Assembly: GCF_026004055.1 (NCBI RefSeq)
Contig: NZ_BPIJ01000001.1
Location: 496,001-560,000, forward strand
Direction: 5' to 3'
Source: Meiothermus sp.
GTDB lineage: Bacteria > Deinococcota > Deinococci > Deinococcales > Thermaceae
Length of the DNA stretch: 64,000 nt
Of this stretch, positions 40,583-46,162 are shown piece after piece (the first letter of the stretch is position 1; each line of letters opens with the position of its first letter). A program made the position numbers and the translations under genes. The notes beneath the pieces are model-generated. The model saw nothing but the letters and a program-made list of their open reading frames with translations. It ran no database searches and was not told the origin of the DNA.

Positions 40583-40649
40583 AGGGGTTTTGCCTTACTT
40601 TTACACCCGATAAGATGGGCTTCAAAACAAACAACCTTGTGAGTAGATT

Positions 40650-40919
40650 AGAGCGCTCTTCACAAATATCGAACCATCGGGGACTAGGAATCTGTTGTCC
40701 TGGACAGAACAGTAGCCGCCGGGAAACTCGAAACCCAAGCACCCGTGGCCCACGCCCCAGTGCGTAACATGCGTCTGCCAGGGAATGGCTTATGCCATAG
40801 CCACAACGTGGCTAACCTGGCCCAGACGCAACGCAGACAAGCGTGCCTCACCGAGGTGAGGCACGTCTGCTTGTCCCTTCTCGTTTTCGTGGGCGGCCCC
40901 GCCTGTGAAGAGCGCTGTA
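40650..40919. repeat. TIR repeat family, copy R1 (full length, 270 bp)
   Basis: Bounded by AGAGCGCTCTTCACA on the left and TGTGAAGAGCGCTGTA on the right, which are inverted copies of each other. Internally it carries CGTGCCTCACCGAGGTGAGGC, part of a near-perfect palindrome. The right 140 bp (40776-40919) is almost identical to 46023-46162. There is no ORF of credible coding quality inside, so it is non-autonomous. Confidence 0.8.
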
Positions 40920-40970
40920 GCGGTCTGGTGCGCCGATTTTCGCCATAAGCTGGGGGTTGCCTTGACGGAT

Positions 40971-44045: not shown

Positions 44046-44071
44046 GTCGTAGGTGGCATCCTTCTTTGGCT

Positions 44072-44346
44072 ATCGCGCCCTTCACCGACGTGGCCGCCCA
44101 CGAAAACGAGAATGCATCTGAGCCCTTCGCGTTTCCCACACACACTGCCCTCACGGCGGCCCGTGTTTTACCCCCACCCGCACACACCGCTGTTGGGGGT
44201 ATTCGTGGGAACCGCTCCAGGCGCAGGTTACGCACCCAAGCATGGGCCGGGCCCGGCCCACGGGGGCTTGGGTTTTGAGCTTCCAGGCGGTCATCGTTCC
44301 CAGGACAAAGCTGCCGAATGCTCAAAATGTGCGAAGAGCGCTCTAA
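44072..44346. repeat. TIR repeat family, copy R2 (275 bp, opposite orientation)
   Basis: Left TATCGCGCCCTTCACCGACG and right GTGCGAAGAGCGCTCTAA are inverted relative to each other. It shares with R1, in the other orientation, the blocks around CGTTTTCGTGGGCGGCC, GTTTTGAG/AAACCCAAGC and the tip GAGCGCTCT. Its right end lies directly upstream of the -10 (TAAACT, 44352-44357) of the M50-like gene, so it may contribute to that promoter. Confidence 0.72.
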
Positions 44347-44366
44347 ACCCGTAAACTGGTAGCGAA

Positions 44367-44993
44367 ATGTTTTTCTTTGAGCTTCTTGGCAGAGACCCCC
44401 TGGCCTACCTGGTTGCCTTTGCTGCAGCCGCTTTTGGCCTGGTTGTTCACAACCTGTTTCAAGCCTATCTGGCCGACCGCTACAAGGACGGCGACCCCCG
44501 GCGGTACGGCTTCCTGACCGTCGAGCCTAGGGTGCACCTGGATGGCCTGGGGCTCATTTTCCTGGCCCTGATTGGTTTTGGCTTTCCCCGACTGGTGCCC
44601 TGGCGGCTTTTTGGCCCCAAAGGGGCCCAGACCGCACTAATGGGGCCGCTGGGCTTCTTTGTGGCGGCTTTTGTTTATATCCTTTTGGGCAGGCTGTTGG
44701 AGGGGGTGGGCCCTGCGGCCTCGAGCATCGCCCTAGGCTTGCAGGTTGCAGGTTCCCTCATGATCGGCCATGCGGCGGTGTTCTTGTTCCCGGTACCCCC
44801 GCTGGACGGCGCCAGAGTGGTCTACGCCGTTGGCAGTGCCGAGGCCCGGCGCTTCATGGATCAGCTCCAAAGCTATGGCTTTGTGGGTTTTTTCCTGATT
44901 TTCCTGGTCTTGAACATGAGCGGAATACTCCCAGCCATTCGGGCAGGTCTCAGTGGGTTGCTCAACAGCCTTTTTGCGGCCATCGGGTTGTAG
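44367..44993 (+). CDS. Site-2-protease-like membrane protein with degenerate active site
   Basis: 208 aa, six or so hydrophobic helices in the order of the short M50B (rhomboid-sized site-2 protease) family. At the position of the catalytic HExxH the sequence is H28-N29-L-F-Q32 (LVVHNLFQAYLADRYK), so the catalytic Glu and second zinc His are missing. The family context is otherwise kept: GFLTVEPRVHLDGLGLIFLAL, and a C-terminal FPVPPLDGARVVY with the third-ligand-type Asp. It is therefore probably a pseudo-protease. TAAACT ends 9 nt before the ATG (leaderless). The stop is followed immediately by the ATG of an active paralogue. Confidence 0.75.
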   Translation: MFFFELLGRDPLAYLVAFAAAAFGLVVHNLFQAYLADRYKDGDPRRYGFLTVEPRVHLDGLGLIFLALIGFGFPRLVPWRLFGPKGAQTALMGPLGFFVAAFVYILLGRLLEGVGPAASSIALGLQVAGSLMIGHAAVFLFPVPPLDGARVVYAVGSAEARRFMDQLQSYGFVGFFLIFLVLNMSGILPAIRAGLSGLLNSLFAAIGL

Positions 44994-45647
44994 ATGGGCC
45001 TGCTTCCGCTTCTACAAAGCGACCCCCTGGCCTTTGTGCTGGTGGTTCTGGTGTTGATGCTTTCGCTGGCCCTGCACGAGTGGGGCCATGCCATCACCGC
45101 ACTGTGGATGGGCGACCCAACTGCCAAAGAGCAAGGGCGGGTCAGCCTCAACCCCCTCAAGCACCTCGATCCCATAGGGTCGGTAATGATCTTGCTGGTG
45201 GGGTTTGGTTGGGCCAAGCCTGTTCCGATCTACCCACCCAACTTTCGCCACTACCGGGTGGGGCTTTTTGTGGTTTCCATTGCAGGTATCGTGATCAACT
45301 TGCTCATTGCCACTTCGCTAGCGCTGTTTTTGCGCTGGTTACTGGATATGGGCTACCTGCAAAACCCCGGCGGTTTTTTACGGGTGGCCGTTCAGGCTGC
45401 AGCGGTAGCAGCGAGCATCAACCTGACCCTGGCTGTCTTTAACCTCTTGCCCATCCCGCCTCTAGACGGCTCTAAAATTGTGCAGAGTTTTTTACCCTTG
45501 CGCTATCACCCCTACATCTGGCGGCTGGAGACCAACCCCACCTACGCTATTGTGGCCATGCTCTTGTTACTTACGGTGTTCCGCCAACCCCTGAGTAGTT
45601 TTCTGAGTACGGTACGGACGCAGTTCTTCAATCTATTTGGCTTGTAA
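44994..45647 (+). CDS. Site-2 protease family (M50B) zinc metalloprotease
   Basis: 217 aa integral membrane protease. The zinc motif H28-E-W-G-H32 lies in the first core helix (LMLSLALHEWGHAITALWMGD); GRVSLNPLKHLDPIGSVMILL follows, and NLLPIPPLDGSKIV near residue 155 gives the third ligand Asp. The residues align position for position with the preceding gene, of which it is a paralogue. It starts at the base after the stop of that gene, so the two are co-translated. The substrates are unknown. Confidence 0.9.
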   Translation: MGLLPLLQSDPLAFVLVVLVLMLSLALHEWGHAITALWMGDPTAKEQGRVSLNPLKHLDPIGSVMILLVGFGWAKPVPIYPPNFRHYRVGLFVVSIAGIVINLLIATSLALFLRWLLDMGYLQNPGGFLRVAVQAAAVAASINLTLAVFNLLPIPPLDGSKIVQSFLPLRYHPYIWRLETNPTYAIVAMLLLLTVFRQPLSSFLSTVRTQFFNLFGL

Positions 45648-45673
45648 TTGGGGTCAATGGTCAACAGTGGTTT

Positions 45674-46162
45674 AGAGCGCTCTTCACAAATATCGAGCCA
45701 TCGGGGACTAATGGTCTGGTAACAAAATACGCAGTATGGGGTTTAGCCTTCAGAACGCGCCGTGTCTCGTAAACCTGGGCCTTCGTGTCTTGCCTGTACG
45801 GTCATGCAAAAAGCACCCCACCCCGCTTCGCCCCTTCCCTCCCCTACTGCGTAGGGGAGGCCAGGTGGGGTGGCTGACCTGGCCCTTCACGCAGCGGATT
45901 GGGGGCCTTGCCTGATACCCTCCCCCACCCTCCCTACGCGGTAGAGAGGGCGTTTTTAGGCCATCTCGGGGGCCGAAGTGGGATGGAATCTCTACATCGA
46001 TGTATTCGGTGTGCGGTACAAATGCCAGGGAATGGCTTATGCCATAGCCACAACGTGGCTAACCTGGCCCAGACGCAACGCAGACAAGCGTGCCTCACCG
46101 AGGTGAGGCACGCTTGTCCCTTCTCGTTTTCGTGGGCGGCCACGTCTGTGAAGAGCGCTGTA
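45674..46162. repeat. TIR repeat family, copy R3 (489 bp, with a second repeat inserted)
   Basis: Left end AGAGCGCTCTTCACAAATAT matches R1 through CATCGGGGACTA; right 140 bp (46023-46162) match R1 40776-40919 nearly base for base, ending TGTGAAGAGCGCTGTA. Between them the palindromic repeat at 45816-45951 is present, which explains the greater length. No credible gene lies in the 45648-46172 gap. Confidence 0.78.
45816..45951. repeat. Dispersed palindromic intergenic repeat, copy 2 (inverted)
   Basis: Cores CCTCCCCTACTGCGTAGGGGAGG and CCTCCCTACGCGGTAGAGAGGG with GGCCTTGCCTGATACCCTCC between them. Its reverse complement follows 8941-9041 through CTACCGCGT, GGAGGGTATCAGGCAAGGCC and GAAGCGGG. 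It lies inside repeat copy R3. Confidence 0.75.

Follow-up and report, generated by a model that had tools for sequence, protein, structure and literature searches.

A tandem gene pair of Meiothermus sp. joins a canonical site-2 protease (S2P) to an upstream paralogue in which the HExxH motif of the active site is replaced by H-N-x-x-Q (HN..Q). On balance, we consider it probable that the upstream gene encodes an ancient S2P pseudoprotease, the remodelled former active site of which would bind a ligand or membrane helices, whether the active sister is present or not. The replaced motif is invariant in the rows sampled across the order, evolves as slowly as an intact active site and is kept in a lineage in which most genomes lack a gene of the type that adjoins it in Meiothermus.

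A tandem pair of S2P paralogues

The window, by which we mean the whole stretch of 64,000 nucleotides that was analysed, carries the pair on its forward strand, with the following features:

44367–44993, + strand: gene for the HN..Q pseudo-S2P (M50 fold), 208 amino acids; an open reading frame, of a type present in 102 of the order's 111 genomes, with an S2P-like AlphaFold2 model
44448–44462, + strand: codons of H28-N29-L-F-Q32, the replaced zinc/catalytic motif, from sequence, row conservation and site rates
44790–44810, + strand: PVPPLDG motif of the pseudo-S2P, with the D147 codon at 44805–44807, from sequence
44991–44996, + strand: TAG/ATG junction, stop abutting start, with possible translational coupling, from sequence
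44994–45647, + strand: gene for the canonical S2P (M50), 217 amino acids, with HEWGH and PIPPLDG (D158), from Pfam PF02163 and a structure model

The two open reading frames lie head to tail in the same frame, the TAG at 44991–44993 being followed directly by the ATG at 44994, and the motif begins at residue 28 in both proteins, as HNLFQ in the first and HEWGH in the second. Because the whole proteins also align (26% identity over residues 4–193 of the first, E = 1.3e-9), the match between the motifs reflects homology rather than chance, and the two genes are paralogues with the S2P/M50 fold. The first-pass annotation of this DNA had described adjacent, abutting M50 genes with aligned zinc motifs (H28NLFQ32 and H28EWGH32) and PPLDG in each; the coordinates, the junction and the homology are confirmed, as are the two motifs, PVPPLDG with D147 in the first protein and PIPPLDG with D158 in the second.

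The second protein has all the marks of an S2P of the M50 family, namely HExxH, LDG, the fold and a score above the Pfam Peptidase_M50 (PF02163) cut-off (50.1 bits against 27.2). The first scores below that curated cut-off (14.7 bits against 27.2). It has the LDG motif, which supplies the third zinc ligand, and lacks HExxH, so that the general-base Glu of S2Ps and one zinc-binding His are missing.

The first protein is predicted to have the S2P transmembrane fold. Its AlphaFold2 model (pLDDT 95.9, pTM 0.90) was matched by VIA-align to S2P entries in the nine best rows (Z 6.7–9.7; best other row 6.1); for helical bundles a Z below about 13 can stand for a common arrangement, and we rely on the clean block of S2Ps at the top. 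The four best Foldseek matches were S2Ps as well, at E values of 0.013–0.2, with none below 0.001, and a sequence search of solved structures found no match at E ≤ 1. For the second protein (model pLDDT 92.6), the eight best VIA-align rows are S2P entries (Z 8.0–11.1; next row 5.4). The HN..Q model shares the fold of SpoIVFB and MjS2P (3b4r_A, Z 9.5, 152 residues aligned, rmsd 4.7; 8vjm_A, Z 7.6, 151 residues aligned, rmsd 5.2), and its H28 and D147 occupy zinc-ligand positions of these enzymes; in contrast to these enzymes, it is missing two HExxH residues (the Glu and the second His) as well as a CBS domain.

Upstream of the pair in the window are two genes that we take, from their sequence, to be accB and accC, separated from the pseudo-S2P gene by a gap of 321 nt. 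A scan of the + strand upstream of the pair for sigma-70-pattern promoters found no promoter-like site. Fragments of a dispersed, MITE-like repeat of about 240 nt with a palindromic core flank the pair on both sides, partly inverted. The repeat lies at 40640–40925 and 46023–46162 of the window, with parts near 44069–44112, 44314–44349 and 45666–45710; with 40 of 163 candidates scored, it has at least 40 long matches in this genome, itself included, the others being 90–97% identical.

Distribution and constraint of the HN..Q gene

Sampling at the level of the order, the class or the phylum yields the same 111 genomes. We label their groups as Meiothermus (g1, assigned by identity), Thermus (g4), Trueperaceae (f5), a 'Deinococcales bacterium' group (f3) and a group filed as Thermaceae bacteria (f4), and refer to genes of the first and second type as HN and HE. 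The HN..Q-type gene is present in 102 of the 111 genomes; 103 match the first protein, the match in G042 being to its HE gene. Nine genomes lack it: G042, whose HE gene is found at the end of a contig, G100, and seven that are incomplete. Of the 85 genomes with a completeness of 90% or more and a contamination of 5% or less, 84 match; G100 (96% complete) is again the exception, and the one small relative that turned up there is a degenerate copy of another kind. We read the motif in 101 of the 102 genomes (98 through the main set of loci, plus G078, G085 and G094); in the remaining one, G077, the gene is split over two contigs. A search of plasmids gave no match.

The degenerate copy of G100 belongs to a second kind of small S2P, which occurs in three Trueperaceae genomes (L119:4882–5505, − strand, in G100; L228:3997–4626, + strand, in G082; L137:4354–5076, − strand, in G081). 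These copies have HGFVL, HGIAL or QGATA in place of HExxH and no LDG Asp, keep parts of the NPxxHLD motif of the HE family, and are perhaps the product of a second, independent loss of activity.

To compare the two families, rows with a score above 80 that matched the first protein better were typed as HN, and rows with a score above 90 that matched the second better as HE, with the degenerate L119 and L137 excluded. Every one of the 97 distinct HN rows that cover the motif positions (99 rows in total) has H28, N29 and Q32. D147 is present in 96 of the 99; of the other three rows, one has Ser (G008) and two are fragmentary, from copies with a frameshift, and the neighbouring G148 is Met in seven lone Trueperaceae rows. 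When the 208 sites of the HN family are ranked from the slowest (94 of 99 rows; those left out include the fragments L089 and L090, and also L077), H28, N29 and Q32 take ranks 2, 5 and 4, all among the five slowest. The intact motif of the HE family ranks 7, 14 and 8 of 217 (66 of 68 rows; L047 and L088 left out). The replaced positions are therefore about as constrained as a real active site.

Pairwise Nei–Gojobori estimates, which are rough where dS is near or above 1, gave a lower median dN/dS for HN than for HE in Meiothermus (0.053 versus 0.112; 17 loci without the duplicate L002, 136 pairs each, 130 and 127 usable), in Thermus (0.146 versus 0.198; 24 loci, 276 pairs each, 274 and 275 usable) and in f4 (0.233 versus 0.310; 45 pairs each, 45 and 43 usable). 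Lone HN copies of Trueperaceae have medians of 0.117, 0.393, 0.154 and 0.236 in four genera. Across 66 loci, one per genome and without the broken G050 locus L088, HN proteins are more identical than HE proteins in 1,323 of 2,145 pairs, with means of 0.598 and 0.592; the difference between the two is thus small at depth. Judged from these sequences, the HN..Q form is maintained by purifying selection in Thermaceae, f4, f2, f3 and Trueperaceae.

The HN reading frame is broken in G051 (a single contig) and in G064 (65% complete, 620 contigs), as might be expected if the gene were a decaying duplicate without function; an HE frame is broken too, in G050. We give this explanation hardly any weight, as it is opposed by the invariant motif, the low dN/dS and the presence of the gene in 102 of 111 genomes. 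Decay was also the outcome that the first-pass annotation had named as fatal to its own reading, with conservation of the HNxxQ form as the point to look at; the first gene is not decaying, and 97 of 97 rows keep the motif, with purifying selection across groups.

What remains of the S2P core was read from a joint alignment of 95 of the 99 HN rows and 66 of the 68 HE rows. Zinc-ligand positions are kept in the HN rows (H28 in 95 of 95, D147 in 94 of 95), and E29 has become Asn and H32 Gln in every one of the 95. Three residues that are invariant in the 66 HE rows are replaced in HN proteins, N102 and N143 in 95 of 95 and N53 in 93 of 95, and P54 is retained in 72 of 95. At the column of the HE-invariant N150 (partner codon 45441–45443), the 32 Trueperaceae HN rows have Asn (29) or His (3), and the HN rows of the other groups have Phe or Tyr (63 of 63). 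The mostly partnerless Trueperaceae thus retain one more residue of the S2P core, and the pocket of their HN proteins is, given N150, less stripped.

The retained S2P fold, D147 and, in most Trueperaceae rows, N150 could be taken to mean that HN..Q proteins are still intramembrane proteases with an unusual motif, in which N or Q substitutes for E and H. We regard this as very improbable. None of the 95 HN rows keeps N102 or N143 of the HE family, and loss of the Glu alone is enough to abolish the proteolytic activity of SpoIVFB, as reported for its E44Q variant (PMC11486902). Because E44Q has this effect in SpoIVFB and a zinc ligand is also replaced here, proteolysis by HN..Q proteins is unlikely.

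Another explanation is a repurposed enzyme, in which HN..Q and D147, usually with H135 and H57, would form a new active site, or a metal or ligand site, for chemistry other than S2P proteolysis. Asn and Gln are invariant at the two replaced catalytic positions, which are among the five slowest sites; two of the three S2P zinc-ligand positions (H28 and D147) remain; an extra His is found at position 135 in 87 of 99 rows; and N150 is Asn in 29 of 32 Trueperaceae rows. However, H135 is missing from the four f3 rows and from five of the ten f4 rows, 13 of 32 Trueperaceae rows have Gln in place of H57, one genome has Ser in place of D147, and the neighbouring genes give no hint of a substrate for the HN..Q protein. 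The invariance of N29 and Q32 could equally be compatible with new chemistry; taken as a whole, we find a repurposed enzyme quite unlikely.

Lineages with and without the adjacent protease

A tree of 66 rows separates into three clades: the 31 HN rows (100/100), the 20 HE partners (91/87) and 15 S2Ps from outside (100/99). The HN label needs one change on it. The sampled tree holds a single HN..Q clade, in which Asn has taken the place of the general-base Glu and Gln that of one zinc-binding His. The two Trueperaceae HE genes L101 and L102 diverge at the root of the HE clade, from a fork left open in the tree, a position that fits loss of the partner in Trueperaceae better than a late gain.

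Throughout f1 and f4, in genomes with both genes, the HE gene lies directly downstream of the HN..Q gene, with anything between an overlap of 4 nt and a gap of some 120 nt. At the named loci, the HN stop abuts the HE start in three Meiothermus, the two overlap as ATGA in six Thermus, and a gap of 0–9 nt separates them in six others with a partner. T. parvatiensis (L151) is among the species that carry the pair. We searched 42 genomes of the remaining groups for a partner (35 of 39 Trueperaceae, all four of f3 and three of the four of f2). It adjoins the HN..Q gene in all three of these f2 genomes and in 2 of 4 of f3; of the other two f3 genomes, G006 has it on another contig, and in G005 it was not found. 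Only 3 of the 35 Trueperaceae searched have a partner-type gene (G073, G108 and G109), adjacent each time. No such gene was found in 31 of the 34 Trueperaceae searched that carry HN..Q, including the single-contig genomes G083 and G092, and H28, N29, Q32 and D147 are kept in 29 of 29 tabulated lone Trueperaceae rows. Other profile matches in these genomes are mostly in longer frames; L229, the one that was read, contains HEFGH and resembles a canonical S2P of greater length, and another M50 protein could serve as the partner of HN..Q there.

These patterns bear on the role suggested by the first-pass annotation, in which a catalytically dead protein, co-translated with the active one, forms a heteromeric protease or regulates it. 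In its strong form, HN..Q would be a dedicated non-catalytic subunit that binds, activates or inhibits its HExxH neighbour, an arrangement that we would liken to iRhom-like or, presumably, BofA-like regulators. The stop and start codons that abut or overlap by 4 nt in Meiothermus and Thermus agree with this, as does the adjacency of the genes in those f1 and f4 genomes that have both, where they stay together despite a changing upstream gene. An obligate pair implies strict co-occurrence of both subunits, but 31 of 34 Trueperaceae and G005 of f3 have no partner-type gene, and in G006 it lies on another contig. The annotation had itself set lack of co-occurrence as the observation that would count against it, and this is what we see in Trueperaceae and in one of the four f3 genomes. 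The motif is moreover unchanged in the lone rows, and HN..Q is therefore not merely a subunit of its neighbour. An obligate heteromer or dedicated regulator is accordingly unlikely. The annotation is supported in that the first gene lacks the general base and one zinc ligand, is under purifying selection and meets an intact S2P at an abutting or ATGA junction in Meiothermus and Thermus, and a regulatory or heteromeric role is possible in these two genera; it does not extend to a general role. The always-adjacent arrangement suggests that the partner matters in Thermaceae and f4.

The gene upstream of the pair varies. In other Thermaceae the pair sits after a Nudix gene or a gene for a LysM-type protein, and elsewhere it follows accC, as in the window, or a gene of CCA-adding type, so the pair stays together in Thermaceae and f4 while its surroundings change. 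At 27 of 38 loci measured (Meiothermus excluded), a large gene from one cluster lies upstream, and the HN..Q gene starts within 50 nt of its end or overlaps it, an arrangement also found at L083, L131, L133 and L134. Two representatives of the cluster contain DHH, DHHA1, CBS, PolyA_pol and RNA-binding domains, a layout that is presumably that of CBS/DHH tRNA nucleotidyltransferases. Examples of this linkage, often with an overlap and seen outside Meiothermus and f3, are L131:2406–4970 and L105:6154–8745. This gene was not seen beside the pair in the window, at L130, L132, L135 and L136, or at the f3 loci.

Open frames of 775–1,245 amino acids in some Trueperaceae had raised the prospect of a fusion between the pseudo-S2P and the upstream CCA-adding-type gene. 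We rejected it, as the coordinates at L110 and L121 place the two in different reading frames; on the strength of these two checks, the remaining long frames are taken as high-GC open frames too. At many Trueperaceae loci (for example, L105:2688–5494), genes for a Ser/Thr kinase with NHL repeats and a PP2C phosphatase are convergent to the lone pseudo-S2P gene.

A candidate intramembrane pseudoprotease

The constraint on N29 and Q32, whether or not a partner is present, indicates that the pocket still does something, which is why we favour a pseudoprotease that has a binding role of its own and, where its sister is present, works together with it. The tree and the distribution suggest that the HN..Q gene initially had a canonical HExxH S2P next to it, a sister that most Trueperaceae later lost while keeping HN..Q. 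The HN..Q protein would not cleave peptides. Instead, the membrane-embedded cleft of the S2P fold, with polar H28, N29, Q32 and D147, may bind transmembrane helices (alternatively a small ligand or a metal) and hold them, and by this means stabilise or withhold clients. Next to a co-translated active S2P it may present clients to that enzyme or keep them from it; without that S2P, the binding role would persist alone. Several points count against this reading: N150 is kept as Asn in most Trueperaceae HN rows, G100 is without HN..Q, the excess in identity of HN over HE is small across all loci, and the two genes are constantly adjacent in Thermaceae and f4. More tentatively, HN..Q and the LDG Asp might constitute an invariant non-proteolytic site for binding or catalysis, with a role of its own, that has outlived the active S2P in most of a bacterial family. 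If so, evolution would have kept the dead copy, not the live one, in most of that family.

As a protease homologue that has lost catalytic residues and is under purifying selection, the HN..Q protein qualifies, from its sequence, as a predicted intramembrane pseudoprotease. Relatives of this sort have been described in other settings. EGY3, an S2P homologue of plant chloroplasts, is likewise without HExxH; it is described as devoid of proteolytic activity and as aiding the stability of other chloroplast proteins (PMC10978774). We liken the two by description rather than by sequence, and whereas EGY3 is eukaryotic and chloroplast-located, HN..Q is bacterial, about 208 amino acids long, fixed in its signature and, in many genera, next to an active S2P. 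The iRhoms, too, are inactive relatives of an intramembrane protease; they evolved from active ones and are reported to bind clients of their active relatives (PMC3149277). The comparison with iRhoms drawn by the first-pass annotation holds in that HN..Q is a pseudoprotease related to an intramembrane protease, but it does not amount to a shown mechanism: iRhoms belong to another protease family, their ERAD mechanism is eukaryotic, and HN..Q persists without a partner-type S2P.

A search of titles and abstract openings in the open-licence part of PMC found no bacterial S2P pseudoprotease. The pseudoproteases of intramembrane proteases that it returned are eukaryotic (iRhoms and EGY3), and pseudo-S2Ps are already known in plants. 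A bacterial family with a fixed replacement motif, with lineages that have the partner and lineages that do not, and with the cultured thermophiles Thermus and Meiothermus among its hosts, would allow the role of a dead intramembrane protease to be tested. As the replaced catalytic positions evolve slowly, point mutation can test directly whether the former active site is still in use.

Relatives outside the phylum were sought with one peptide pattern in the GTDB genome collection. Among the matches listed (80 of 483 relatives), 25 have HN..Q and 55 have HE..H. By title, the 25 HN..Q loci all belong to Thermaceae, Trueperaceae or Deinococcales, and none of the 55 HE..H loci listed comes from the phylum. 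The nearest outside relatives among the matches listed are small S2Ps at these 55 loci, mostly from Betaproteobacteria and 26–33% identical; unlike the HN..Q proteins, they have HE..H in 55 of the 55 listed. At four of four such loci that were read by eye, a Sua5/YrdC-like gene lies upstream of the small S2P, and at two of them a TrpS-like gene lies downstream; the proximity of small S2P genes to tRNA genes may be a wider pattern.
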